DNA of 64,000 nucleotides, from positions 102,169,725 to 102,233,724 of the forward strand of contig NC_044277.2 in NCBI RefSeq assembly GCF_004027225.2, read 5' to 3'. The position numbers and the translations under genes are program-made. Of the stretch, positions 29,170 through 63,410 are shown piece by piece. The notes below the pieces were generated by a model. The model ran no database searches. It was not told the origin of the DNA and saw only the letters and a program-made list of their open reading frames with translations. Position 1 is the stretch's first letter, and every line of letters starts with the position of its first letter. Origin of the DNA: Strigops habroptila. Its lineage: Eukaryota; Chordata; Aves; Psittaciformes; Psittacidae.

Positions 29170-29580
29170 TGCGGTAGGGCTCTGGTGAGGGGCTGCCATG
29201 GGCGGGCGCCGGCACCCCAAACCAAGGCAAACGGGCCCCCCGCCCCGCCGCCTCCCCTGCGCGCACACAGCCCCGACCGGCGGCGCGGAGGGCTCGACCC
29301 GGGACGCGGGAAGGGACCTGCCCGCCCCACGGGCCCGCAGGGAGCAGGCGCGGCGGCCGCAGGGATCAGGAGGCGGGACGGCTCCTCCCCGGCGGGGCGG
29401 GCTGAGGGGGCAGCCGGGCGGTGAGGCGGGAGCGGGCCGGGCCGAGCGAGGACGGAGCCAGTGCGGGTGAGGCGGGACCGGCCCCGCGGAGGCACCATGT
29501 CGGTGTCGGCGAGGACGGCCATCTGCGTGCTGCGCTGCGACCTGCGCGCCCACGATAACCAGGTAGGGCCCGCCCGGCAT
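29170..29580 (+). promoter_or_regulatory. CpG-island promoter of CRY-DASH
   Basis: A compact GC- and CpG-rich block with several GGGCGG-type boxes (for example around 29394-29402) surrounds the first coding exon. No TATA box is seen. The extent is judged by eye. Confidence 0.75.
29497..29562 (+). CDS. CRY-DASH: CRY-DASH exon 1 (coding part)
   Basis: ATG at 29497 in GGCACCATGT context opens MSVSARTAICVLRCDLRAHD, which fits the family's 'LLRNDLRLHDN' start; here the usual Asn of LRNDLR is Cys and the Leu before HDN is Ala. It ends in CAG before GTAGGG. The 66 nt leave phase 0. Confidence 0.85.
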
Positions 29581-29693
29581 CACCTCCCTCCGCGGAGTTT
29601 TCAGCAGGAATAACCCGCTGTTGGCTGTGCCGCAGAGAGGAGCGCGCTGCAGCCTGCCCCCGGGAGCTGTCCTGGCCCTTTCTGTGTTTCCAG

Positions 29694-29866
29694 GTGCTCC
29701 ACTGGGCTCAGAGTAACGCCGATTTCGTTGTTCCTCTGTACTGCTTCGACCCGCGGCACTACCTGCGCACCCACTGCTACGGCTTCCTGAAGACAGGGCC
29801 CCACCGGCTCAGGTTCTTGCTGGAAAGCTTGAAGGATTTAAGGGAAACACTCAAGAGAAAAGGAAG
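29694..29866 (+). CDS. CRY-DASH: CRY-DASH exon 2
   Basis: Acceptor 'ttccag' precedes VLHWAQSNADFVVPLYCFDP, and KTGPHRLRFLLESLKDL follows; both blocks are typical of vertebrate DASH proteins. The donor is AG|GTAA. The exon is 173 nt and leaves two bases for the next codon. Confidence 0.9.
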
Positions 29867-31588
29867 GTAATTGAGAAAGCACTGTGCAAATAACACGTCC
29901 ATTTTCATTTCCCATCTTGTTTTCAACACTTATCTCTGCTGTGAGTCAAATCATGTCAAATACTCCAGGCTCTGATGGTGGTTTGTTTCAGAGAGCCACA
30001 GCCCATCTCTTAGACACAGTGAGGTCCCATACATTGCCCCTGTTCAGATGACCTGCTGTGGCATGTGCAAGGGAGCAAAGAGCCATCCAGTCTGCATGCC
30101 ATGCAGGGTTTGGTCTGTTGAACTCAGATATCACAGATGGGCATCAGACTTGAGCCCTTGGCCCAGAGTCCTGATGATTGGAGACATGAAAGGCAGTCTT
30201 CTGAGATGCAGGCAGTGACAGTAGCCACTGTGGCACAATCCTTTCTTGTGCCTACTGAGTTTTCCCTAGGAGTTGGCTTGAGACAGACCAACATGGATCT
30301 TGGCTTGTGAGACCAGGGAGTTAAATTTGCGCATGCCCTGTCTTGCTAAACCCAATCTCCTAGGTAGGTTACGCTGTGGGAAGGTGTCTTCAGAGATTCC
30401 TCCTTCATTATGCCTTTAGAAACCATAACTCAGCTAGACCAGCACCTGAAGGTCTATATGCTGAAGAATCCATTACCAGATAACATCTGGCTTTGCTTAG
30501 CAGATCCGCCTGTCTTCTCCCAGAGCAGCATAACAGTGGTGGTAAAAGCAAGAGGAATGGCTCTAGGTTTGCAGGGCTGTGTGGACCGTGCACATGGTGA
30601 ATGTTATAGGAGACTGAAAGAACTGATCAGTGGGTATCTGCACCCACACTCTGCACTGAACAGGTTCAGAGCTGGTTGAATGCTGCTGTGCTGTTGTGAG
30701 TGGCAGATAAAGAGATTGGTCTTTGCAGTGAGAGATGCATGGTTGTGAAGAGCCATGCTAAGACGTAGTAGTAATGCAGTGACACAAATCTCCTCCATGT
30801 GGTGTTCCTTGTGGGACGTCTGTTCTCTGCTTTTCTGTGGGAAGTAAAGGGAACAGCTCTCACAGTAGCATCCCTTGCTCCTGCCTTCTTCAGACCCAGC
30901 CCATCTTTGAAAGAAACTTCCCAGTTGTGGTTTAAAATATTCTGGCAAAAACAATGTGTTGCCCTTCAAGAAATTCTGCTCCAGCACATGACAGACAGGG
31001 AAAGGGACAGAGTCATGTATGAGGCTCTTCACAGACCTCTGCACCCACCTCTAACCAACTTTCTCACCACAGCTTCTCTTTTGGTATGGTCCCCCGGGTA
31101 CACAGCTGGGCAGTTGGTGAGGTTGCAAGGTGGGAGGGAAGTTTTGTTGACTCTGTTATGAACACAGCGTTCAGAGGAAAGAATTCCTCTGAATACCCCC
31201 ACATGAAAGTGGAGAGGGGTCTGCCCACAGGCCACCACTACTTGTGAAGGGGATTGAAAGAGGAATCACTTCTTGAATCTCAGCCTAAGCATGTGAGGAT
31301 GAAAAGATCTGACAGATTTACTTTTAGGTAACAGCCTGGCTTTCTGCCCAGTCATCCTTTGAAGGCATCCAGGGTGGCAGAAATGTGTGTAAGCCCCAGA
31401 GGCTTAACAAACTGTTCACTGAGTCCTAAAAAATGTAGGCTAGTCAAATCCTGTTTGGCTGCTTTCACACGCTGTCCATGCTCCACAGAGAACTAGTACA
31501 TGTGTTTCTGGGCCGGGACTAGGGCCTCCTGTACACATAAATAACAATAACACCAAACCTACTTCAGGGCAGTATTTTGTATCTGCAG

Positions 31589-31682
31589 TACCCTTGTTGT
31601 GCGGAAGGGGAAGCCGGAAGATGTGGTTCGTGATCTGATTACTCAGCTGGGCTCTGTCAGTGCTGTGGTTTTCCATGAAGAG
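31589..31682 (+). CDS. CRY-DASH: CRY-DASH exon 3
   Basis: Acceptor 'ctgcag', then STLVVRKGKPEDVV and VSAVVFHEE, part of the N-terminal Rossmann-like domain. The donor is GAG|GTAAGG. The exon is 94 nt and returns to phase 0. Confidence 0.9.
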
Positions 31683-32252
31683 GTAAGGGAAATACTTGAA
31701 TGACGCTGTTAAAAGATAAAATTAGGTTGTGGAGGTTTCTTCTACAACCGAATGGTGATGCAGATCCTGTGTGTTCAGAGCCTTTCTTGTCTGTGGAATG
31801 TTAACCTTGGGGCAACTGGCTAGCGCTTGGGATAGGGATGCTGTAGGTGTCTGGGTGGCAGTCCTTGCTGGATGATGGCAGCTATTGGTGATTGATCACT
31901 TACAAGTGCTGTCTTGAGGAAGAAGAGTTTCTGGCAACTGGCATTTTAGGTCAGCTGAGTCCATTTCTCTGTGTGCACCAAGCTGCCTTTTCCTGGCACC
32001 TTCCTTGCACAGGGAGCTAGCTGTCACGGGACATACTGTATTGAGTGTAGAAAAGGCCCACAGCGAGTTGACAGCACCCATATTTAGGCAGTTGCCCACC
32101 AGTGTGTGTTGAAGAACAAAAGACAAGTCCAGTCCTGGCCTGTCAATGGGGTTGGTTTGTCACTGACATTTCTTCACCACGCTGTTTGATCTAGAGCCTG
32201 CTGAGTTCAGTGGAGGGCTCTGGATCCAAACCACCGGATCTGGGGGCTTTGT

Positions 32253-32275
32253 GCACACACACACACATATGTATG
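32253..32275. repeat. (CA)n microsatellite
   Basis: A short CA run followed by TATGTATGTA in intron 3 of CRY-DASH. Confidence 0.75.
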
Positions 32276-32939
32276 TACATAGATGCACTCAGTATTAGCA
32301 AAGTCTGGACCTCAGAACTGCCTAATGCAGGAATTGCTGTGACCTGCACTGCAGGTATTCCTGCTGTCAGGCCTAAGACCCTTGTAACAGCCTACACCTC
32401 TCATAGTGCCTGATTCCATGTAGCTCTAAGAACAACCATAGAGAATCAGACAGAAGACCTCATCTCACTCCGTAACCTTCTTCCTGGCAGTGACCAATTA
32501 CAGATGCCCAGAGAAAACTAGAGGAGCAGCACTAATCTGTAAAGAGACTTTCCCTGAACACCTTCCCAGCCTCCAAGAATCTGTGGCTCAAGGATTTCTT
32601 GAAATAGGAACACTGTCCTTATATCCGATAACCCTCAGTGGATTTCTTTTACATATATTTGCCTAGTCACCTTTCCAGACCATGCAAACTTAAAACATCT
32701 GCAACATTCTACATCAAGGAGTTCCTTATTCTGGCATTGCCACTACTAATGGATAGTGAAAACACGCACTGGGTTTGGCAGAGGGAAATACTTGGAGATT
32801 GTCTGTATGTACCTCTCTCTAAAGGGATGAAGCTAAATGTGGAGATGAGGGAGGAGAGCAAGACCAGGGACCAGGGTCTGTGTGCAGGCAGGAGCTGAGG
32901 CCGCGCAGCCATGGCCTCACTGCATTTTGCTCTCCCTAG

Positions 32940-33070
32940 GCCACACAGGAGGAGCTGGATGTGGAGAAGGAGCTGCGCCAGGTGTGTAGTCAGCATGGGG
33001 TGAAGATTCACACATTCTGGGCATCCACACTGTATCATCGGGATGACCTTCCCTTCAAACCTATTGCCAG
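32940..33070 (+). CDS. CRY-DASH: CRY-DASH exon 4
   Basis: Acceptor 'tccctag', then ATQEELDVEKELRQVCSQHG and TFWASTLYHRDDLPF, a strongly conserved DASH block. The donor is AG|GTGGGC. The exon is 131 nt and leaves two bases. Confidence 0.9.
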
Positions 33071-33938
33071 GTGGGCTGCTCCATGGTATCACTCGCTCTT
33101 CCACTGTCCCATTTGTTTCTCACTCCAGTGAACTGCTCAGGAGGGGTCTTAATCATCTGGTCCTGTAGGGAAGAGACTCATTAGTCCATCTACATTTAAG
33201 GAACAATGCTGCCATGCTCATACACTCCAAGGGGAAGGGGCACTTTCATCCCTCTGTACTAGTAGGATTTACACTTCAATATGCATAAAGCCGAGCGGTT
33301 TGTTTGGCCATTTATTGAGGGACTGGTTTCTCTTTGCCCTTCCACCAGCACGATTTGGATACTCAGTCTGCAGTGCCTAGGGTCCATGTGACATTGGACT
33401 GGATCACTCCATTACCCCATCTGGCTAAATGCAGCTACCTATGACAGTATCCCTTTGCTTGTGGACTCTTCATGGCTCCCTCAATAGTCACTTGAGGTGT
33501 AGTTGATGGAATTGAGTGATTCATGGTATCCTATAGAAAATGCATAATATAGGGCAGAAGAGCCAGGCCATAAAAGTGCCTGTTTCTCTCTATTGACTGA
33601 AAAGGCAGCAGGAAGATGCAAATTTTTACATTGAGGTTAGCAGTGGGTAATCAGAAGTTAGGTGAGGTAAATCTGACCCTTGTGGATTGCCCCATCAGGA
33701 CACATCTTAAATTGAAAAGGCACCATTTGCATCAGAAGCAGAAAGAAACTGTGTGAAGGACCAAACTTCTGGTGGCTGCTAGCCCCAAGGGCATCTAACT
33801 CAATAGTTCCAGGCAATGCACAACAAACCCTCAGGAGAGCGCGGCTGGAAAACTAACCCTCCATCTCATCTGAGGAAGCCATGTGGTGCTGTGTGCCACC
33901 CTGCCCAGGGAGATGTGACTGTGCTGTGATCTGTGCAG

Positions 33939-34087
33939 GTTGCCCGATGTCTACACCCGTTTCCGGAAAGCCGTGGAATGTGAGGCGAAGGTCCGGCCAA
34001 CCCTGCGGGTGGCGGATCAGCTACAGCCTCTGGCTCCAGGGGTGGAAGAAGGGTGTATCCCTACAGTGGAGGATTTGGGGCAGAAGG
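33939..34087 (+). CDS. CRY-DASH: CRY-DASH exon 5
   Basis: Acceptor 'tgtgcag', then LPDVYTRFRKAVE, followed by VRPTLRVADQLQPL and PTVEDLGQK, which form the linker region of DASH proteins. The donor is G|GTAAGG. The exon is 149 nt and leaves one base. Confidence 0.9.
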
Positions 34088-34463
34088 GTAAGGAAGCTTA
34101 CTTTGGCAGTTGCTCCCATGGAATCCTGCTTAGAGGTGTCTCTTACTGAGAATCAAAACATGAAGGCCCCCCAAAGGCAGTGGTTGCCCTTCGAACTGTA
34201 ACTAAGCCTCTGTTCACTCGTACAGCAAATGAAGGTAAATTCCCTGCACGGAGGAGCTGCCCTGCAGCTGGGTAGCAAACATCCTCTTAGTCAGTAATTT
34301 TTAGTATGTTTCATGTGGCCCTTTCTTCTAAAGGAAGACCAGGGCACAATCTTTTATGTCCCCAAAGCAGACAGCTCTGTGCTGAACATCTCTAGGTTTT
34401 GAGCTCCCTACTTTTGAGCTGCTTTCCAAGGGGGTAACAATGTGATGGTGTTTTCTGTGGCAG

Positions 34464-34552
34464 ATCCTGAGACTGATCCACGAACAGCCTTCCCTGGCAG
34501 TGGAGGAGAGACCCAGGCTTTAATGAGACTGCAGTATTGTTTTTGGGACACG
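34464..34552 (+). CDS. CRY-DASH: CRY-DASH exon 6
   Basis: Acceptor 'tgtggcag', then DPRTAFPGSGGETQALMRL and QYCFWDT; the GGE-xx-AL motif is conserved at the start of the FAD domain. The donor is ACG|GTAACT. The exon is 89 nt and returns to phase 0. Confidence 0.9.
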
Positions 34553-35364
34553 GTAACTCTTAGATTTCCTTGTCTACATCCTCCCCCTTATACATACGGC
34601 TGTGCAAGTGGGTGAGGCTGCAATTTCACTTCCTAATAATATTTCCTTAGCTCCTGTATAACACTTTACAAAGGAGGGAATTGCCATTACTTCAGTTTTC
34701 AGAGAGACAAACTAAATCGAAAAGAAGTCATCGAGGAACTGGGACTGTAAGCCAAATACTTACGAACCTAGTTCAATGGCCATCCATCTTAAGTCTTTTT
34801 TTACATCAGCTTTTGGGAATTGGGATGATTTATTAGCTCCTTTACCTTGATTTGTCCTGTCTACTCTCCTGTCCCATGTCATCAGCAACATAGTTCCCCC
34901 ATTTTTGAGGAGTGAGAAGTGGCCTGAAGGGCTGCAGCTGTAACTGGGCTGAGGAACAACCAACCCAAGCTACTGCCACAGTTAAAAACAGTAGGAAGAT
35001 CCTAGTAGTCTGGTTTAAAAACTTACAGTCAATAATTACATTTACTTCTTACTCCCTTGCTTTGGTGGGGTGAAGCTGCTGCTGACTGCGCTTTGTCTGC
35101 GCATCCTGACCTTTTTTGATCCTTTTTCTGGTCTAGTTTGAGGAACTGCCTTAGATTTGGGTCGTGTGAATTTAGACAAAGACACACATGCTGATTTCCA
35201 ACAGCATCAGACCCTATGCAGCTTTGCGTGTAAAGCAGGTAGCATCTCCACAGCTGAGATGGGTTAAGAAGTGTTCTGTGCCCATTGGATCACTGGGACA
35301 GCCCTCAGGGATTCTTTCAGCTGTGCTACAGAAACTCCTGCTTTTCTTTGCTGTTGAGGAGCAT

Positions 35365-35949
35365 TGTCCTGGTTTAACCCCAGTGGGCAGCTCAGCCCCA
35401 CACAGCTGTTCATTTACTCCCCACCAGTGGGAGGAGGGAAAGAGTTGGAAGGATGGAAGTGAGAAAACTCAAGGCTTGGGATAAAGCCAGTTGAATAAGT
35501 AGAGCAAAAGCTGCATGCACAGGCAAAGCAAAACAAGGAATTCATTCACCACTTCCCATTGGCAGGCAGGTGTTCAGCCACCTCCAGGAGAGCCAGCTCC
35601 ATCACACCTAACAGTGACTTGGGAAGACAAACACCATCACTCCAAATGTCTCCCCTTCCTTCTTCTTTCCCAGCTGTATATGCTGAGCGTGACTTCATGT
35701 AGTATGGACTGTCCCTTGGGTCAATTGGGATCAGCTGTCCTGGCTGTGTCCCCTCCTAACTCCTTTTGCACCCCTAGCCTGCTCGCTGGTGGGGCGAGGA
35801 GCAGAAAAGGCCTTGACCCTGTGCTAGCGCTGCTCAGCAGTAACCAAAACATGCCTGTGTTATCAACTCTCTTTCCAGCACAAATCCAAAACACAGCCCC
35901 ATACCAGCTACTATGATGAAAATTAACTCTATCCCAGCCCAAACTAGTA
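35365..35949 (+). mobile_element. Solo LTR of an endogenous retrovirus
   Basis: A 585-bp element starts TGTCCTGGTTTAACCCC and ends near 'cccagcccaaactagta'. It resembles the retroviral LTR type common in modern birds, with the internal 'tgctcgctggtggggcgagg', 'ggccttgaccctgtgc' and 'cataccagctactatgatga' wording. GGAGCAT flanks it on both sides (35358-35364 and 35950-35956), a direct repeat consistent with a target-site duplication. No internal retroviral sequence is present, so it is a solo LTR, in intron 6 of CRY-DASH and in the gene's orientation. A duplication of 6 or more bases would suit a class II (ERVK-like) integrase better than ERVL, but the exact boundary is uncertain. Confidence 0.85.
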
Positions 35950-36618
35950 GGAGCATACATAGCTTCTGCTCTTGGTCAAGCATTAATAGAATCAGTGCTG
36001 GAAAATCTTCTGTTTTGTTATGCACATATTGTCTTCCCCAGTGAGCTAGAACAGCCCTTTAGCAATTGGAACCTGTGCAGCAAAGGGGATCAAGGAGAGA
36101 CCAAGCTTCTCTATATTCCCTGCATTGTGAGTGAAGTGCTCGGAAGAAGGAAGATCACACCCTGCTGTAAATGTGGGTGGCCCAGAAATAATTACGATCA
36201 GGATTCCTACAGCTGAGTTTTGGGAACTGTCAGAGACTGTGGTTCTCAAACTCACACAAGCAGCCTCATGGACAAGGGACCAGGCTGCCAGTCCCACTGG
36301 TGCTTGTAAGTGGATTACTGATCCGCAGTCAGGCAGGGAGCAGCACAGCCAGCTTCACAGTGCTTGTAGAAAGCAATGTGCTACAAGCTGAAGCAGGGAG
36401 CATATCTTGCGACGTGCACCCCAGAGCTGCAGTGAAAACTGCTGGCCTGATTCATTCCTGTGCGCTGGAGGCAGTCATTTGGCAGCTCTGTAATCCTTGC
36501 AGGCGGCCGTGAGAGGGAGCCCAGCGCTGCCAGATTGCCCTAGCCCCAGCGTGAAAGAAAACTTACTTAGCAGATTGCATGTAAAGTATTAAAACCTGTT
36601 GTTCTTTTGCTTGGACAG

Positions 36619-36692
36619 AACCTGGTTGCATCGTACAAGGAGATTCGGAATGGACTGGTGGGAATGGACTACTCAACCAAATTTGCACCATG
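36619..36692 (+). CDS. CRY-DASH: CRY-DASH exon 7
   Basis: Acceptor 'ttggacag', then NLVASYKEIRNGLVGMDYST and KFAP(W). The last codon TG|G of Trp is split by the intron. STKFAPW is the FAD-phosphate contact segment of the family. The donor is TG|GTAAGG; the exon is 74 nt. Confidence 0.9.
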
Positions 36693-38424
36693 GTAAGGAT
36701 TTTTGCTGGGAGGCTGGAAGCTCCTTTTCCACTCCCATCCCAGCCTGATGTTACCAGCCTGCTGAGTGCTCACTGGGCATGGGTAGGGGTCTCAGTGTGA
36801 TTCATTTTGCCCTTTTTGCTGGGGCAGCTCCAGAGCTGTTCTTTGGTGTGCTTCCAGGCAGCATTTCCCTGGGAACATTCCTGCAATTAGGAATTGCTGA
36901 AGCATAGAAGTACTGTGCTAAGAGCCCAGTGTGCTGGGAGCAGCGATGTGGACAGGGCACTGGAGAGACACTCCACTTCTGTTTGGCTTTGTGCTGTGTT
37001 GTGCATCGGGGTGGTTGAGAGCAGCCAGGAAAGAAGCATAACTTCAGCATTTTGACAGGGTTGTAGCAGAACTTGATCCGGCCCTGGTTTGCTGAATGTT
37101 GTGGGGCAAGTCACCTCACCTCACTGCCACTCCCTTCTTCTGTGGGGTGAAGAGACACTTCTGACTTTTCTTGTTGCAAAAAGATCTCTTGGGTAAATGT
37201 GATGATTTCTAATTAGGATTTTTAGTCTCCGGTGCTGGAAGGGAGGAGCAGAGTAACTTCCAGACTGAAGCTGCACCAGAAGAACCCAATTCAGCCGAAT
37301 GCTGAGAGCATCTGGAGTGTTTTCGTGACAGAATTGCAATGTGAAACAGTTTTCTGAGGCTGTTACAGGTCAGGATTTCTTGTTTGCAACCGGCTTTGTG
37401 CTTTAATGGTTGCGGTGGATGGCTCCACCTGCTGGCACTTTGGGATCTCTGACCGCTGGCACTGCAGAAGTTATCTGTGGTCTCTGCTCGAGTTTTTCCA
37501 AGCTGGCATTTGCCCAGAGCAGACAGTCCTGATCTGCCTGCCCCAGAGTGTTCCTCTGTCAGATGATTGAAATTAGACTGTTCCAGATTGCAGCCAGTCG
37601 TTCACATCTCATACTGGCTGTTTCTAAGTGTTAGAGCTGGTCAAGAATTCAGGAAAAACTTTTCAGGCCCTTTCTTCCTGTTTTCCAAAATTCATTAGAA
37701 CATCAAATGTTTCCATGAGCCCTAGTAGGAAATTGCAGTAAAACACATTTCTAGGAAAATCGTACTAAAAATTGTTCCTTATCATCCTTTACAATGGGGT
37801 TGTAGCCTACAACCTCTTTCCTGTCTTGCACAGCACCGATTTGGAACAAATGAAAGGAGCCCAGAGGGTTGAAATGCCAAAGCTGGGTTTGATTCCCTAG
37901 TTTTCCTACCCTGCCTGAGATTTTCAGCAAGTCTCTCACTGTTCGTGGTTGCTTAAATGAGACACTAAGGTGCTGCAGGAAAAAGAGCCCTGGACGTATG
38001 GTAACCACAATAAATAAGTTTGTAGTAAAAGGCGGGCAGTCAAACAGCGAGGGCAGTTTATATAGAGATTGGCATTTGAGATCCAGTTCTGGGTTCGTCA
38101 CTGGTGTGCTGTAACCAGCTGGTTAAGTCTTTTAGACAAAACTTGTCAAACTTGTGTAAGATTATCTCAGTAGCTTGGAAACTCCTGCAACAGTCATACG
38201 CCAGGAAGGGCAGGATTGTGATTCTCAGATGGAAGAGTTGTGAAGAAGTCATACAACTTGACTAAAGCAGTTTGGAAAGTCAGTGGCAGAACTGCAAACC
38301 AAGCAAAACTTTTCAGACAACAACTCCTAGACATAAAACTGCCCCTCCACTCTCCCTATGCAGATATCAAGCTGTCAGTCCTGCGTCACATTCAGGACTG
38401 AAAGCATCATTCTTATGCTTTCAG

Positions 38425-38514
38425 GCTGGCACTGGGCTGCATTTCACCTTGATACATCTATGAGCAGATCCAGAAGTATGAAAAATAGAGAACAGCAAAT
38501 CAGAGCACGTACTG
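38425..38514 (+). pseudogene. CRY-DASH: CRY-DASH exon 8 carrying two in-frame stop codons
   Basis: Good acceptor (tatgctttcag) and donor (TG|GTATGT) bound a 90-nt exon in the expected phase (one base completing Trp259, 29 codons, two bases starting Trp289). The frame reads LALGCISP, stop, YIYEQIQKYEK, stop, RTANQSTY(W). The family has LALGC-SPRYIYEQI-KYEKERTAN-STYW at this place, so the stops replace Arg (CGA to TGA by a CpG transition is the simple route) and Glu or a similar residue. TGA is 38450-38452 and TAG is 38486-38488. Confidence 0.9.
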
Positions 38515-38659
38515 GTATGTGCGTGCATGATCAGTGTGGCTTGTTTTCTCTGAAAAGGAAACTGGCATCTCATGCGGAGGAGTGATTTGTTGACTTCTTA
38601 ATTAATGTTTGTTTTTCCTGTGCCTGCTGTCTGGTTTCTCTAGGTTTGTTGCAGTCCTA

Positions 38660-39119
38660 TTTCAGTATGGAGGGCCATGAGGATGACAAAGGGGCTGGAG
38701 CACCTCCCGTGTGAAGGCAGGTTGAGAAAGTTGGGGCTGTTCAGCCTGGAGAAGAGAAGGCTGCGTGGAGACCTCAGAGCAGCCTTCCAGTATCTGAAGG
38801 GGGTCTATAAGGATGCTGGGGAGGGACTCTTCATGAGGGACTGTAGCAACAGGACAAGGGGTAATGGGTTCAAACTTAAACAGGGGAAGTTTAGGTTAGA
38901 TATAAGGAAGAAGTTCTTTACAGTGAGGGTGGTGAAGCACTGGAATGGGTTGCCCAAGGAAGTTGTGGCTGCTCCATCCCTGGCGGTGTTCAAGGCCAGG
39001 TTGGGCAGAGCCTTGGGCCACATGGTCTAGTGTGAGGTGTGCCTGCCCATGTCAGGGGGGTTGGAACTAGATGATCTTAAGGTCCTTTCCAACCCCAGCC
39101 AATCTACGATTCTATGATT
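38660..39119 (+). repeat. CR1 LINE 3' end
   Basis: Plus-orientation CR1 from 'gatgacaaaggggctggagc' through 'cagcctggagaagagaaggc' and 'gcactggaatgggttgccca' to the terminal 'ctacgattctatgattt'. It begins about 145 bp after the end of CRY-DASH exon 8. Confidence 0.92.
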
Positions 39120-40800
39120 TGTTAGTTTGTCTTTGACATCCAGAGGCTTTAGGCACTTTATAAGTAAAGATTATTAATGCTAGTTGTCATTATTATTGCT
39201 GGGAAGTTGTGGTTCATGATTTTTAAAAATGTAAATCAGCACCATCCCTCTCTGTATTGCTGTTATGGGATAGATGAGAAGGAAGAAGAATGAATTACAA
39301 ATTATTTACAAATAAAAGCCAAAGGGTTTCTTATGCCAAGGATATGAGCAGGGTTTCACCCAAAAAGCTCCATGACTTGTACAAATCACGTTGTGCCAGA
39401 AGGACCTCCAGCCACAGTCCAGCAAATGGCCCTGTGCTTGCTGGGCTGCCTGACTGTGACCACAACCCAGTGCAAAGGGAGAGAGGGGACTAGGAAGTGG
39501 GCTTAATGCATCCTGCTTTGTCACCCATGCTCTTCCTCACCTCACTGCCTGCCTGCAGGTTGTCCTGAAGGAGTCAGTGTGTCCATTGCAGGGCTGGCTT
39601 CGAACTTGCTCACATACTCTGATCTGCGCAGACATTGTGAATTGGAGCCTGGTAGGGAGCTTTCCTGGCCTAGCACTGCACCTGCGTGGGAAAAAACCCA
39701 AACCAGAAAGTCTGTGCAAACTGTAGAACTATGTTTTCACGTTGGTTTGTTACATTTGCAACATGTCAAACAGCACAGTGGTTGATGAAGAACAGGCAGA
39801 ACATTGCCAACAATTCTAGCCAAAATACTCAATTTCATTAGCATTCAAATAACAGACAAAATATCAACCTTTTGCCTGTTGAAGTGTATGCTATTTTTTC
39901 CTTTCTTTCTTTCTTCAAAGACAACTGAGAGAGGGAAAATTTCAGGCAATGAACATACTCCTGTTTTTCTGCCTAACAGCCAGCCAGCCTGCCTGCAGGT
40001 GGGGTGTCAGTGTGATCTGAGCATTTAAAAGTGATAAATAATCATTAAAAAAGAAACTGTCAAGCTCCCAGGCACTGCAGTCAATTCTACAGTGAAGTAT
40101 GGGTCGTGGTGGCTGCACACATTGGGGGACTGGTTGACGCTCAATATCATGACACTAGTTTTAGCATTTGGACAGTGTCCTGTTTTGTAATCAGATTTCC
40201 CAGAATGATCTTTTAAGCCTAAGCATCAGCTGAGCTGATTTCCAATATGCCAGAGAGCTGAAGCAGGTCTCAGACACTGAGGTACCATCATTTTATAAGA
40301 AGCTCTTTTTATATAAAACTATTTTCTGTGGGCCTGGCAGCTGATCTCATGAGCTAGCCACTTAAAGCCAGTTTTGAAAGGTGCCTGTAAGTCCCTTACA
40401 AAGGTTATTGCTTAAATCAACGCAGATCTCTTGGGAATGTGCTGACATGCTTGTTCATGCGGAAGTGTGAAGCTGAATCAGGTCCTCACCCTGCTCTTTG
40501 GAGAATTACATCTCGGTAGGGATGGATGAGAAACAGGTTTCCTGAAATTCTGCTCCTATGGCAAGTTAAGGAAAGCTTCCCAAGTGATTCATGCAAGGTT
40601 TGCTTTCACTGTCGTCATCCAGGTGTAAGCTAGATAAGCAGGCTTGGGGCAAGAACTGGTATCATGGGAAGCTACGGGAAATTGCTCATTGTGAATAAAC
40701 CTCCCTCGCGGTGTTAATGATGGGTGCTGTGGGAGCAAAATCCTCATTCAGCAATTTTATCTGACACACAGTGAAATAGAGACACGCCTTTGTGTTTTAG

Positions 40801-40880
40801 GGTCCTCTTCGAACTGCTGTGGCGGGATTACTTCCGATTTGTGGCCCTGAAGTATGGCAGAAGAATTTTCTCATTAAGAG
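40801..40880 (+). CDS. CRY-DASH: CRY-DASH exon 9
   Basis: Acceptor 'gtgttttag', then VLFELLWRDYFRFVALKYG, the most conserved part of the photolyase FAD domain. The donor is G|GTGCGT. The exon is 80 nt; one base completes Trp289 and one is left over. The exon would also join exon 7 in frame if exon 8 were skipped. Confidence 0.92.
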
Positions 40881-41758
40881 GTGCGTATGGATCACCGTGC
40901 TTGGAGAGAAAAGGTACAGTCTTACAAGAGGGAAAGTTGTGTCACCACCCTGGGATGTTGCTGGGGGCTTACTGTCAGCACAGAAGTGCCTCAACACCAC
41001 GGTGTTGGACACTGCATAGACACTGAGACTTTTTCCTCAAATCTGGCTAGAATGGGGAGGATTGTTAACACACGTCAGTGGGAAGCAACAGCACAGTAAG
41101 AGCACAGATGCTTTTCCTGGAGACATCCCACCTTTGGAAAGAGTCCAGGCTTGCCTAAGTTCACCAGTGAATCTGGGACAGAGCAAGAACTGATCAAGCT
41201 GTGTGAATCCCAAGAAACCAGATATTCTTTTTGCCTTGAACTACATAGGAATCAGATTCAGCTCCAGGCCCAGTGACTTAGTATAGTATAGTCTACACAT
41301 GAAGTGGGGGCCTGAACTCTTGGTGCAACAACAAATATCTAGTCCATATAGTCAGGAAACCCTACAGCTGATGCCTGTGCTGGGTGAGCTGTTCTCTGTG
41401 TGATGTAGCTGCCCACACTTAAGCATGCAGCACTGTTTTAGATGTGCCAGGGCAGTCTGCCTGGCATCCAGCTGTGGCTGTGGAGAAGCACATCTCCCTT
41501 AGAGCTTTTGTTGCATATGCCAGGCCTCTGTGGCTGTTTCAAATGCCCTACAGCATCTCAAATGACACTGGACACCAGTGGTGGGCCTAAGCTTAGATGT
41601 CTGGAGCTAGAGCCAAGTCACCCCTGCTGCCCCCTTCCACTGTACAGAGGACTATAATTACCACTGGTCCCCTGCAAACAGAAAGTCACCCACCTCATCT
41701 GCCCCTACCCCACTGCAGGAGCAAACTGTTACCAGGGGCTTCTGCCAGGGATTTCTGG

Positions 41759-41850
41759 GTTTGATACCTGCTACAGAAACATCAAACCTGCTACAAAGCA
41801 GGTTTGATACCTGCTACAGAAATATTATACAGATACCTGCTACATAAACA
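41759..41850. repeat. Local tandem and inverted repeat built on GATACCTGCTACA
   Basis: GATACCTGCTACA occurs three times (about 41763, 41806, 41832). Between the first two copies, ATCAAACCTGCT (41781-41792) and its exact reverse complement (41797-41808) form a 12-bp stem with a 4-nt loop. It lies in intron 9 of CRY-DASH. Confidence 0.85.
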
Positions 41851-42017
41851 CTGTCCTGGACTGAAACTGCACAAGAAGACAGTAGCTTGGGCCAGAGCAC
41901 ATTGAGTATCTTCATTCTAATGTCTTGTGTCAACTGAAGTGCCTTTGGCTGTCATTGTTTTATTAACTGCCTGTGTCAGCATTTGCCTTCGTTAGCAGCT
42001 AATTTTTTCCCCAATAG

Positions 42018-42077
42018 GGCTTCAAAGTAAAGAGGTTGCCTGGAAAAAGGACCTGCAGCTTTTCGACTGTTGGAAAG
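42018..42077 (+). CDS. CRY-DASH: CRY-DASH exon 10
   Basis: Acceptor 'ccaatag', then GLQSKEVAWKKDLQLFDCWK, matching the family's W-x-x-D-x-x-x-FxxWK segment. The donor is G|GTCAGT; the exon is 60 nt. Confidence 0.88.
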
Positions 42078-43161
42078 GTCAGTAGAAACCACAGTTATGG
42101 CTAAGTGTGCTTCTGGTTTCCATCTGTCTGCATGCTAACATGGGCTCTAACACTGACTCAGGTTTATGCAGGGGCACTGTCAGCACGACCAGGGCCTGTC
42201 ATTTAAACTGTTACCACCAAACAAGAATCCAAACCCTTGCTTTGGTGTGAGAGCAGGACACTTGGCCTCATTTCTGAGACTGAGCATGGTACAGGAGCAG
42301 GCCCTCAGGGTATGTATATATATAATGAACGGCCAGGCTCTGTCCGGCTGGCACACTCTCTGAGGTGCACTGCAGTCAGATTTTCCTGCCCAGCAGGAAG
42401 TGTTTATGACCTGGTGGTCCCTTCTGTTTAGTCACACAGAGGCTGACCACCCCTTCTTACCAATGCTAGATTGCCATGCCTGCTACATTTTGTTCTTCTG
42501 ATTGATTTTGGTTAGAAGCTTAGAACAGCGTTAGAATAAATCACATCTTTTGTTATGCCAATGCCTTTTAATATCCTTGATTTTCTTTATCTTTTATAAC
42601 TTTGTTGTCACATGAATAGTAAGTATAATATCTCAAAACTTGGAGGGACTGACAGATTAAATTATCAGAATCAGTGAAATACACACCTATATATCTTTCT
42701 TCACATTAATGCCATGTGTATCCATTTGTACACAGGTACAATAAATCTTCTCCTTAGCAATAGATAAGGCTGTCTACTTTTCAGGTACTAACCCTCAGGA
42801 CTTGTCCAATACGTCCCTCTCTGCTATTAGTTATCTGTCAAGAATCTTTCTGTTCTTCACCCATCTCACTATTGTCTGTGTTTTTATTTTGCTCTGCAAA
42901 ATTCCAGTCTGAGATTTTTCTGTACCTTGTTCTTTTTCTTGACAAAAATTCTCCTCATTTTAATTTTCAGTATAATTTCCCATTTCGTTTCCAGTGGATC
43001 ATAGTGGCTGCACGCCCCCTAAACCTCACTGAAATCTCTCCCTGCCACTTTACACTGGCACTGTCTTACCTGCTCTGATGGCTGTGAGTGCATGACCACA
43101 GGTTGGTTTATGAGTGCCCAAAAATGTCATCATGTCCCAGCGCTGGCTTTTGTCCCTGCAG

Positions 43162-43319
43162 AGGGCAAAACAGGGGTTCCTTTTGTGGATGCCAACATGC
43201 GAGAGCTGGCTGCAACAGGCTTCATGTCTAACAGAGGGCGGCAGAATGTCGCCAGCTTTCTCACCAAGGACCTGGGTCTGGACTGGAGGATGGGAGCAGA
43301 ATGGTTCGAATACCTACTG
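43162..43319 (+). CDS. CRY-DASH: CRY-DASH exon 11
   Basis: Acceptor 'ccctgcag', then [20 protein letters not shown], followed by [20 protein letters not shown] and [13 protein letters not shown]. This is the photolyase signature region with the family's FAD-binding Asn-Arg-Arg/Gln pattern. The donor is CTG|GTAAGA; the exon is 158 nt. Confidence 0.92.
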
Positions 43320-44089
43320 GTAAGACTGAACCCTTTGTATACCTGGAGTGGTTTGTCCTCCCTGCCCTGAGTGACAGGCAGGAGCTCAGCCCTGCCTGAT
43401 AAGGGATGGTACAGAAGACAATCAGTAATTTTCAGTCTGACAGAAGTGCATGTATAAACTGCTTGGTATGTACTTCCCAAAGCTCATGTAAGAAGAGGGA
43501 ATTTTGCCACAGTGAAGCTGCCATCACATAAGATGTAGTGGGAAGTTTGCAATGATAGTTTTGATCCTCCATGTAGGGTTTTAGCCAGAGTTCTGTCACA
43601 CTTGAGAACACTTTCAAACATCAGTTATGTTAACAGTGCTCTGATTTGCTCACCCCAGAGGCTGGGGAGGAGGACAGCCCAGAAATAGAACATAAAAAGA
43701 AATGTGTTGTGACCACTGATGCCAGTGTTGGCACAGTGTCTTTGCATTGATAACTCTGGACAGGGAAGCCAATCCAGTTAAGAACAGTCAAGTACGGACA
43801 ATAGCTGGGTCTGCTTCCAGACAGCTCCACCCTGGCTGTAGGCATCTTTCTTCATGCTGGGAGTCATGGGTCTCCCTGCCAACTGGGGCACCAATTCATT
43901 GCTCATATGCCAGTCAGCAGCCATGTAAACTCAATTAAATAGCTGGGTTGCTTCTCCATCCTTCAGTCCCCAGTTGGTGTTCCCTCCGGTGATACTGATG
44001 GACAGACTGTCAGTGGCACCATGCTGAGTGGTGAAAACTGAGGCTGAGGAGGTCAATTTGCATGAAAAGAAATAAAATCTGAAACCTCA

Positions 44090-44410
44090 CCATGTTCCAG
44101 TATTTAAAAGCTGGCTACAAAGCAGATGGAGACTCCCTTTGTAAAAGAGTCACATGGAAAAGATGAGGGGTCATGGGCACAAGTCACTCCTGGGGAATTC
44201 TGACCGGACACAAGAGGAAAAATTTTCACACTGAGAACAATCAATCAGCTGTTGGAATAATCTCCCCAGGGAAGTGGTGGGTTCCCTAACACTGGACACT
44301 TTAAAGATTCAGCTGTACATGGTCCTAGGACATCTAGTTTATGTCATGCTTTGCCTAGGAAGATGATCCTTGAGGTCCCTTCCAACGCGGTGTTCTAGGA
44401 CTCTGTGATA
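44090..44410 (+). repeat. Older, diverged CR1 copy
   Basis: Shows 'accatgttccagtatttaaa', 'ccccagggaagtggtgggtt', 'ccttgaggtcccttccaacg' and 'ttctaggactctgtgata', the + orientation CR1 layout with a diverged sequence. Confidence 0.75.
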
Positions 44411-46025
44411 TGTGTGTGTCTGTCCTGCGGAGTGAGCCACTGGGATAGTTCTGAACATTTTGTAATATCTGGGTTTTGATTGCATCTATCAGCTATGGCT
44501 TTCAAAGCAGTTAAGAAGGTGACTTCATTTCACAGAGAGAGCTTCATGTACAGGCAAGCCTTGTGCTCTGATTAAGAGTTGGGAGTCCGGAACTGAGGCT
44601 TTGCTATGACAGGAGGGCAGCCTTGCATTCCTCAGCTAGGAGCTTGGCTCACTTTGCAGTCAGGCAAGAGGGCCAAGGAAAGTTCCAGGTCCTATTCCCC
44701 AAGTGAGGAAGACCTGGGAGGTCTCACACTAGAAAGATGCAACCTGGGTTACATACCTTTATTCATATAGGCATGAATGATACCAGCCTTGCTGGAAGCA
44801 GGATTTAGCCCTCACCTCAAGAAGCCCTAGATGCTGACTGCCACTGTAGGCTGGCGTGGCACATGCTGATCCTTCTGTCCTTTTGTCCCTTCCTTTCAGC
44901 TTGTATCACACTGACACATTGCTAGACAGCTCAGTTACTTTAAGCTGGTGGCACCTCCAGAGTAACATAGAGGAGACATCAATCTGATGGGGGAGATATG
45001 GCTATAGAATGGTAGAGGCCAGTACAGAACTGAAACTGGCCTTGCTTGCCTCTAAGGAGGGAAAGCAATGCATATTTAATCTTTGATACTTCTAGCAAAG
45101 GCCCACTGACTGTGCATACCTGTGAAGAAAAGGGTGTTCGTCATCCACACCAGATGGGCAGGGAGACTAAGGCTCTCTGAAGCCAGGAGAAAGGCTAGAG
45201 ACCTCTGGTGTCCTGAACAGAATAAATCTCAGCTGTGATTTTATGCACAGGGTCAGTCCCGAAGGAAAGGGAGAGAAACAAACAGAAGAGAATGCCAGGA
45301 AGGGGCAAGGCTGAGGGGGAAATGAGCCTGCCTTCTCCAGTCCCCTTAGATTTGCCCTCACCTCCCACAGATGCTTTCCTGAATGCTAATTGCACAATCA
45401 GGCCTCCGATGGCATCTTTCTTCCCCTCTTTATCTGCCCAGCCAGAGGAAGTGCTGTGGGAAGGGAAAGCACAGTGAGCATAGCTGGCTGTGGCTCACCC
45501 TGACCCCAGCTCTTGCTGGCTTTGCAGGGAAAGGGGAAGGGACCTTGGCAGAGCCCATTCCCCTGTGCCTTCTGCCATCTGGGTGCATTGAGCTGCTTGC
45601 TTGGAGGAGTGGCTGAGATTTTGGAAGCATCACCGTGTGGCGTGTCTATTGCTGCAGTAAGGGAGAGCACAGCACTGGACCTGCAGAGTGACGTGTCCTG
45701 CCAGTGCTACGCTTTTGCAATGCTGACAGCCCTCTTGGGAAGGCCCAAAGATCTCACACCCTATTTGCTATCACTGCCACTCCCCTCCCGAGCTAGCTTT
45801 GAATTGTCCTACAGCTGGAAAACTTCTGATGCTGGATTTGAGCCACCCTGTGCAGCTGAGGAGCTCTCAGACTGGGCCTTGTTCTCTCATTTGTGCCTGT
45901 TTCAGGAGTCTTGCTCCAGTTTACATAAGCATCCTTAAGAGCATGTGCAGCCTACTGAGCACGTCATGAGAGCTCAAGTGATTCCCATAGCAAAGCACGT
46001 CTCTCTGCCAAGAGTCGAGGCTTAT

Positions 46026-46285
46026 CATAGAACCATAGAATGGTTTGGGTTGGAAAGGACCTTAAGATCATCTAGTTCCAACCCCTTGCCATGGGCAGGG
46101 ACACCCTGCACTAAACCATGTCACCCAAGGCTCTGTCCAACCTGGCCTTGAACACTGCCAGGGATGGAGCATTCACAACTTCCTTGGGCAACCCATTCCA
46201 GTGCCTCATCACCCTCACTGTAAAGAACTTCTTCCTTATATCTAACCTGAACTTATCCCTGTTTAAGTTTAAACCCATTACCTGA
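46026..46285 (-). repeat. CR1 LINE 3' end
   Basis: Begins 'catagaaccatagaatggtt' and runs through 'gatcatctagttccaacccc', 'gaacactgccagggatggag' and 'taaagaacttcttccttata'. It is in - orientation, 5'-truncated. Confidence 0.92.
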
Positions 46286-46690
46286 TGAAGGTTAAGTATA
46301 GCAGGGAAAAAACTTTAGTGTTTGTATTGATTGCATCTTCATACACTCTGTGTGGTCACTCCATACAGTCCAAATTAGACTTGTCTCCAACCTGCCTAAC
46401 AGGATCTGCAGAGATGATTTTGTTCACCTGTTTTTCTCTGGGTAACTGGTCAGAAAGAATTTTGTCTTGTATTTGGAATGTAGTGGGCTACTGTTTCTTG
46501 GCATATGAGCACTCAAAAGCTAGGGCTAGTTGTCATGAAGTCTGCCATGGCAGATGGCAGAAAGAGAAGGATTTATTTTCCTTTTAAAAAGGAAACTGAG
46601 AAAAAGACTTTGGTTGGACTTTTACCTGTCTCATTGACCTAAGGACCATGAAGTGAAGTAGCCTGGGAAGCTGATCTCAGCTGTGAAAAA

Positions 46691-46806
46691 CAGAATCATA
46701 GAATAGTTTGTGACGGAAGGGACCTTAAAGCTCATCCAGTTCCAGCTCCCTGCCATAGGCAGGGACACTTTCCACTAGAGCAGCTTGCTCCAAGCCCTGT
46801 CCAGCA
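46691..46806 (-). repeat. Short CR1 fragment
   Basis: 'agaatcatagaatagtttg' followed by 'agctcatccagttccagctc' and 'ggcagggacactttccacta'; - orientation, about 115 bp. Confidence 0.88.
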
Positions 46807-46992
46807 GCCATACAGCACAGTCCTCTTCTGAGCCAGGCAGCCATACCTATATGGGAAGGCTCTAACTACCCCAGTGTAACCAGACTGATTCCCATGCAAG
46901 GAATTTTCCCTTTGAGATAAAAGGTGGATGAAGAGAGAAGATCCACCAAGGGCCACCACCTTGTCTTACTGTTTTCTTCCTCTGTTCTCAAG

Positions 46993-47112
46993 GTGGATTA
47001 TGATGTTTGTAGCAATTACGGCAACTGGTTGTACAGCGCTGGTGTTGGCAACGACCCTCGGGACAACAGGAAGTTTAACATGGTTAAGCAGGGCCTGGAT
47101 TACGATGGCAAT
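46993..47112 (+). CDS. CRY-DASH: CRY-DASH exon 12
   Basis: Acceptor 'tctcaag', then [20 protein letters not shown] and [20 protein letters not shown]; the [11 protein letters not shown] block near the flavin is intact. The donor is AAT|GTAAGT; the exon is 120 nt, phase 0 on both sides. Two CR1 copies lie in the preceding intron. Confidence 0.92.
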
Positions 47113-48127
47113 GTAAGTCTTGTTTGGCTGCCTTACAACAAATAGTGCAGCAAACTATCTGTGATAGTTTCAGGGAACAGAGGGGGTCAATCTGCTGTGT
47201 AGATACTGCTGCAAAAGCCATTCTGTGATCTCCTCCTTGCCAACAGTCAGGCAGGTTCCTCGTTGTACAGGAAGATCTGACGTTTATAGCCTGCTGCTGT
47301 CCCCATAGAAGCTGGGCTCTATACGGCCTCCATGCCCTGCTGTTGGTCCATGCTTAGTGTTTCGTCACCACTTCTGTGTAATAGCCACATCCCATCAGTA
47401 TCTCACACGGCCAGTTCCTCGAGCACAGAGCAGCTTCTCAGAGAACTCACAAGTAACAAGAGAGATGGAGCTGCTCCTTGGGAGGTTCTGGAGAGTAGAT
47501 TAAACCTGTGACTCCTCTGACTGTCCTCTGTAAGTGGTGGGAGCAGATAAATCACCCTTTCCATGTGCTTAGCCAGAGTTTACACACTGGGTTGCCTGTT
47601 TCCTCCCTATTCTTTCGTTTCAGGCAAGCTGCGCTGTTGCCTTTTGGCACTGTAGCTGGCAGGACTTAGCAAGGAATCAGAAATTACTCCTAGTAGGAGA
47701 CACAGCAGTAGAGTTAATGGGAGAGATTCAGGGGCAAAGAGGGGTTCATCTTGCCAAGCACAAGAGTGTGCAACTGAGTTTTTTCCTGCAGTCACTGGAA
47801 AGAAGAAAGGACTTCTTGGAAGTGACTTCATATCACTATGTCCTAAACAGGGCAGGGGAACTGTACTCAAAAAGCACCTGTCTCCCTACTCTGCCTGCAG
47901 AGTAAGCTTGGGAGAGGAGCTCCAGCATCCAGGTCTCTGTGTTGAGGCACTAATTTTGGGTAGAGGGTTTAGCAGGAGGGGCTAAGGCAGAGGTAGCTGA
48001 TGCTGTAGTACCGCAGCTTCTTCACGTGGAAACCAGACTTCTTTCTTTCACGTGAAGACAGACCCTTGCCGGGAAGCACTTATAGACTGTAACTGAATGG
48101 ATACTGTCCCTTTGGTTCTGTTTTCAG

Positions 48128-48304
48128 GGGGATTATGTGCAGCTGTGGGTCCCAGAACTACAGGGCATAAAGGGAGCAGATATCCACACCCCTTGGGCAC
48201 TGAGCAGCGCTGCTCTCTCGCAGGCGGGAGTAACTCTAGGTGAGACATACCCAGAGCCAGTTGTGACAGCCCCGGAGTGGAGCCGATACATCAACCAGAG
48301 GCCC
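48128..48304 (+). CDS. CRY-DASH: CRY-DASH exon 13
   Basis: Acceptor 'tgttttcag', then GDYVQLWVPELQGIKGADIH and, at the end, VTAPEWSRYINQRP, the end of the catalytic core. The donor is CCC|GTGAGC at 48305. The exon is 177 nt and in phase 0. An alternative donor 15 nt downstream (AAG|GTTGGG) also leaves phase 0. Confidence 0.85.
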
Positions 48305-50109: not shown

Positions 50110-50216
50110 GGAAGAAGTGCCCATCCCAGGGGCAGGAGAGGACCTGCACGCCCCCAGTGCAGCACAAGGACAGAGGGATAGAGTTTTACTTTTCTCGCAG
50201 GAAAGATGCATGGTGA
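50110..50216 (+). pseudogene. CRY-DASH: CRY-DASH last exon, apparent frameshift before the C-terminal motif
   Basis: The expected acceptor is 'tctgccgcag' ending at 50109. Phase 0 from exon 13 gives GRSAHPRGRRGPARP and then TAG at 50179. The conserved DASH tail, DRGIEFYFSRRKDAW, is present in another frame and ends at TGA 50214-50216. One base missing from the C5 run (50151-50155) would account for the switch. Alternatives are a phase-0 acceptor at 50114 or 50129, which keeps the tail without any mutation, or an unseen small exon. Confidence 0.65.

Positions 50217-63410
<13,194 letters not shown>

Follow-up and report, generated by a model that had tools for sequence, protein, structure and literature searches.

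The + strand of the 64-kb window, by which we mean the whole stretch of DNA analysed here, carries an almost complete CRY-DASH gene, of the cryptochrome family and coding for light-driven DNA repair, that extends from 29497 to about 50181 and is composed of 14 exons, in phase and with GT-AG borders. Joined at these borders, exons 1 to 13 form 1461 nt read in a single phase from the ATG at 29497 to 48304. The same exon map, in the same order, was obtained by tblastn with the CRY-DASH proteins of the emperor penguin, the black swan and Xenopus. The features of the gene are as follows, exons 1 to 13 being placed by exon joining and tblastn:

29497–29562, + strand: exon 1, with the ATG at 29497
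29694–29866, + strand: exon 2
31589–31682, + strand: exon 3
32940–33070, + strand: exon 4
33939–34087, + strand: exon 5
34464–34552, + strand: exon 6, which contains the Y230C change
36619–36692, + strand: exon 7, which contains the T243I change
38425–38514, + strand: exon 8, 90 nt, with equal phase on both sides
38450–38452, + strand: lesion 1, in-frame TGA at an Arg position
38486–38488, + strand: lesion 2, in-frame TAG at a Glu or Asp position
40801–40880, + strand: exon 9
42018–42077, + strand: exon 10
43162–43319, + strand: exon 11, with a single match in its own genome
46993–47112, + strand: exon 12
48128–48304, + strand: exon 13, which contains the R433Q change
50110–50181, + strand: exon 14, in-frame reading to the TAG; the family tail lies in another frame
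50151–50155, + strand: lesion 3, a C run where the family reading frame slips

When read with X at the stop positions, the protein scored 624.2 bits against TIGR02765, the DASH cryptochrome profile, for which the curated cut-off is 317.05, and Pfam recognised both the photolyase (PF00875, residues 10–172) and the FAD-binding (PF03441, residues 291–478) domains. In a comparison with solved structures, the top two matches carry the label photolyase, and those ranked third to fifth are cryptochrome DASH. Orthology to the vertebrate CRY-DASH is shown by the best hits, which are bird CRY-DASH proteins, and by a tree built on 30 of 36 rows, in which the window sequence is placed within birds with a fork support of 99; it groups there with five neognath birds, with a support of 90 that lies below the 95 mark. 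The gene has 13 introns, whose borders are GT-AG or a matching acceptor, and is adjoined by MYD88; it is not a processed copy and probably lies in its original place. The neighbour, which looks like MYD88 from its Pfam death domain and from TIR-like exons recognised by eye, lies downstream on the same strand as five exon pieces without a stop (51544–63410) and served as a control for base accuracy. This death domain was the single Pfam match obtained with ten chosen long open frames, none pointing to an upstream gene; a search for ACAA1 upstream with a motif list yielded nothing convincing, and Rfam had no match in the window. The segment 14001–18000 is G+C-rich with raised CpG and resembles the promoter island of an upstream gene.

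The first-pass annotation of this DNA had described exon 8 as an exon with sound splice sites and correct phase that reads two in-frame stops, TGA at a conserved Arg and TAG at a position usually occupied by Glu. Each of these points was borne out. The exon is bordered by the acceptor TTATGCTTTCAG/G and the donor CTG/GTATGT (slashes mark the borders), with a codon split TG/G at each end, and it is translated as LALGCISP-stop-YIYEQIQKYEK-stop-RTANQSTY. In alignment A1, exon 8 is present in 14 of 15 relatives; the TGA site is Arg in all 14, and the TAG site is Glu in 10 and Asp in 4. Stops aside, exon 8 is identical to that of the emperor penguin at 27/27 scored residues, and 25 or 26 of the 27 are shared with mousebird, swan, ostrich, leatherback turtle and Xenopus. 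These sequence comparisons suggest that, until recently, exon 8 was probably fully constrained. A permissive search of the 64-kb window with exon 8 of five relatives gave no other convincing exon 8. Stop-codon readthrough was rejected: the two stops are 12 codons apart and the TGA is followed by TACATC, not by CTAG, the readthrough motif.

The twelve other exons up to exon 13 were likewise said to be open, and exons 1–7 and 9–13 (1371 of the 1461 nt) indeed contain neither a stop nor a frame break. The further claim that the stops form a striking concentration did not hold up as well. Exon 8 represents 6% of the length of exons 1–13 and 11–14% of their stop-gain opportunity, weighted by the single changes that create a stop, and the probability that two stops placed at random fall in one and the same exon is 0.087–0.105. 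Because about 9–10% is thus expected by chance, the concentration hardly goes beyond chance and says little for a special role of exon 8.

Confinement of the lesions to exon 8 holds within exons 1–13, but a further one lies outside it, in exon 14, which begins at 50110 and had not been counted. Exon 14 starts with GRSAHPRGRRGPARP, near the penguin GRSPHPRGRRGPAHP, then departs from the family and ends at a TAG (50179–50181). The conserved tail PVQHKDRGIEFYFSRRK can be read in a different frame from the C run at 50151–50155 onward, with its stop at 50214, and the frame slip at this run is net −1 or +2. In ten bird models and in three further relatives, the tail passes this place to a common ending; among the compared tails, those of Colius and two songbirds are shorter, and Columba (partial) and Rhea isoform X3 were left out of the comparison for their differing ends. 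Deeper in exon 14, several AG sites would bring the tail back into frame if they were acceptors, so that taken alone this lesion could be mild. Runs of C are also the place where indel errors are commonest, and given its position the slip could be such an error.

Relative to intact orthologues, the gene thus carries three disabling lesions, two stops and one slip, and a full-length protein is ruled out by them. We considered how far the remaining exons have kept the constraint of the family. Three replacements affect near-invariant positions among the best 120 of 7990 hits: Y230C, where Y is found in 117 of the 120 listed homologues and F in 3; T243I, with T in 119 and S in 1; and R433Q, with R in 115 of 116 ungapped homologues. 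Of the columns that are at least 97% conserved, 3/149 are changed in the window as compared to 3/1132 in eight intact birds (one-sided Fisher p = 0.024), and at columns that are 99% conserved the counts are 2/98 and 1/740 (p = 0.038). Four models were left out of this bird count: Ciconia (4/140, odd first exon), Columba (15/128, partial), Rhea X3 (14/128) and Geothlypis (0/146, low quality). Three or more changes at the 97% columns are also found in 23 of the 120 listed homologues, many of them distant.

Private changes were counted against 35 vertebrate relatives selected by us among the 120 listed homologues. The window has 9 at the 280 sites on which the other birds agree, within the range of 0 to 12 found in intact birds (Aptenodytes 4, Colius 7, Cygnus 7, Struthio 4, Nothoprocta 12, Poecile 0, Falco 3, Dromaius 2, Geothlypis 5); models with odd or partial stretches gave 8 (Ciconia), 20 (Columba) and 21 (Rhea). 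The BLOSUM62 severity of these changes carried no signal, the window scoring −0.33 and intact birds −0.67 to 1.00. The end branch of the window measures 0.072, compared to 0.070 for Cygnus, 0.030–0.058 for four other neognath birds and 0.025–0.094 for three palaeognaths. With exon 8 set aside, nine of the other twelve exons are 89–98% identical to the penguin, and exons 1, 5 and 6 are less so (18/22, 41/49 and 25/29). Considering the private changes, the end branch and the 23 homologues with as many changes at conserved columns, decay outside the three lesions is slight, and we rejected long-standing decay on the basis of the ordinary end branch and the penguin identity of the nine exons. The slight excess of severe changes on an ordinary branch may reflect either a short time without constraint or chance.

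Taken together, these data are best explained by a young unitary pseudogene: the vertebrate CRY-DASH orthologue upstream of MYD88 has probably been disabled by the two stops gained in exon 8 together with the exon-14 frame slip. A transcript retaining exon 8 would end after 267 codons, ahead of the FAD-binding domain, and would be expected to be removed by nonsense-mediated decay; the bird would consequently be left without a working CRY-DASH. With an ordinary branch length and no other change in exon 8, the loss appears to be recent. A rough neutral dating from the three lesions gave 6–13 My, with limits of 1.3–38 My, under assumed rates of 1.2–2.5e-9 per site and year and, for each substitution, of 0.045 stops and 0.08 frame shifts; the unchanged state of the rest of exon 8 favours the young end. 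The first-pass annotation had proposed either a recent loss of CRY-DASH or an exon no longer in use. The former stands as the best reading, strengthened by the exon-14 slip and by Y230C, T243I and R433Q, whereas disuse is less favoured, as exon 8 is otherwise unchanged and its disuse would leave exon 14 unexplained.

Exon 8 might nevertheless be skipped at present, collecting stops freely while the remaining exons stay under selection. If exon 7 were spliced to exon 9, the frame would be preserved, since exon 8 is 90 nt long with equal phases and both junctions read TG/G, and the protein would lose 30 residues. When the exon 7–9 junction was used as a query, the first hit was isoform X2 of the Poecile atricapillus cryptochrome DASH-like protein (P0010), which is without exactly exon 8, and the second a partial Aquarana model, also without it. 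Of the remaining 102 of the 104 hits, 99 align over most of the junction with no more than 60% identity, as would be expected of proteins that keep exon 8, and three cover just 53–55% of it. The openness of the other exons, with a divergence no greater than that of the swan, also fits skipping. However, the Poecile and Aquarana models may be incomplete predictions, exon 8 is otherwise intact with splice sites that look sound, and skipping would account neither for the exon-14 slip nor for Y230C, T243I and R433Q. Overall, we consider that skipping is unlikely to account for the locus. The specific form in which CRY-DASH is remodelled and not dead appears improbable: exon 8 would be constitutively skipped, giving an in-frame protein minus 30 core residues beside the FAD domain, and the tail would be shortened or rejoined via another acceptor. 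Were this true, the encoded cryptochrome would have lost part of its photolyase core and might have lost its repair activity as well.

Other bird models depart from the full exon set. Those of Falco naumanni (P0014) and Dromaius (P0026) are without exon 12 (40 residues, in frame), so that alternative splicing of CRY-DASH may be common in birds. The Limosa lapponica model (P0164), one of the three low-coverage junction hits, is without a larger exon block (exons 1–2 and 5–8), and the low-quality Geothlypis trichas model (P0006) has several one-residue gaps; each of these could be an error or a further decaying bird gene. In the window itself, a retroposon that we take to be CR1-like lies at 38669–39120, 155 nt past the exon 8 donor, and intron 11 holds an inverted CR1-like copy (46024–46282) that is about 90% identical to it; both could affect splicing. 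The intron 8 element is at best 92% identical to copies in the window and in the 200 kb downstream and is thus probably older than the lesions, and we rejected it as the cause of the loss.

A null allele that is segregating or confined to an individual is a further alternative, in which the stops are real and are carried by one haplotype or part of the population while the species keeps the gene. The little decay of the remainder of the gene agrees with this, and the assembly shows a single haplotype; yet three lesions plus three near-invariant changes is a high count for a single haplotype if the allele is young and under selection, and we regard this explanation as doubtful. A sequencing or assembly error, or a mixture of paralogues, is very improbable: the exon-14 slip does sit in a C run, but both exon 8 stops are substitutions and not indels, the nearby long frames are clean (the MYD88 pieces and an unbroken open frame of 2564 codons, presumably XIRP1, that lies about 155 kb downstream and was used as a base-accuracy control), the window lies within a 155.6-Mb contig of a 1.149-Gb genome in 89 contigs, and no convincing second exon 8 turned up in the window. 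Exon 11 has a single match in the whole genome, and from this genome-wide match count, made for exon 11 only, an intact CRY-DASH copy elsewhere seems unlikely.

The pseudogene reading can be compared to what is known of CRY-DASH in other animals. The intact avian protein ("cryptochrome DASH-like", a cluster of 258 members led by Aptenodytes forsteri) is the same protein, with 91% identity outside exon 8, and shares the residues around the stop sites of the window; the window differs from it by the two in-frame stops, the slipped tail and the three near-invariant changes. Poecile isoform X2, a gene model only, is without the very exon that carries the stops and has an otherwise intact sequence. 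CRY-DASH pseudogenes are described for the cavefish Sinocyclocheilus rhinocerous, S. anshuiensis and Phreatichthys andruzzii (PMC7826195), where the same gene was lost by disabling mutations in one vertebrate lineage; the cavefish loss accompanies life in the dark, whereas the host here is a bird. According to a review, most birds have DASH-CRY, and CRY-DASH repairs cyclobutane pyrimidine dimers, at first in single-stranded DNA (PMC9498864). An earlier survey lists Cry-DASH loss for birds as a whole (PMC4564169), which is contradicted by the intact bird CRY-DASH proteins. Since automatic annotation may omit exon 8, presence or absence taken from gene models can mislead. Among the titles and abstract openings screened, none reports a bird CRY-DASH pseudogene.

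The case looks like a further instance of an ordinary type of event, a gene loss caught at an early stage. A bird seen soon after the loss of CRY-DASH, with relatives in which the gene is intact, would let the role of this gene in birds be asked, and with it which light habits, which tissues and which other photolyases accompany its loss.
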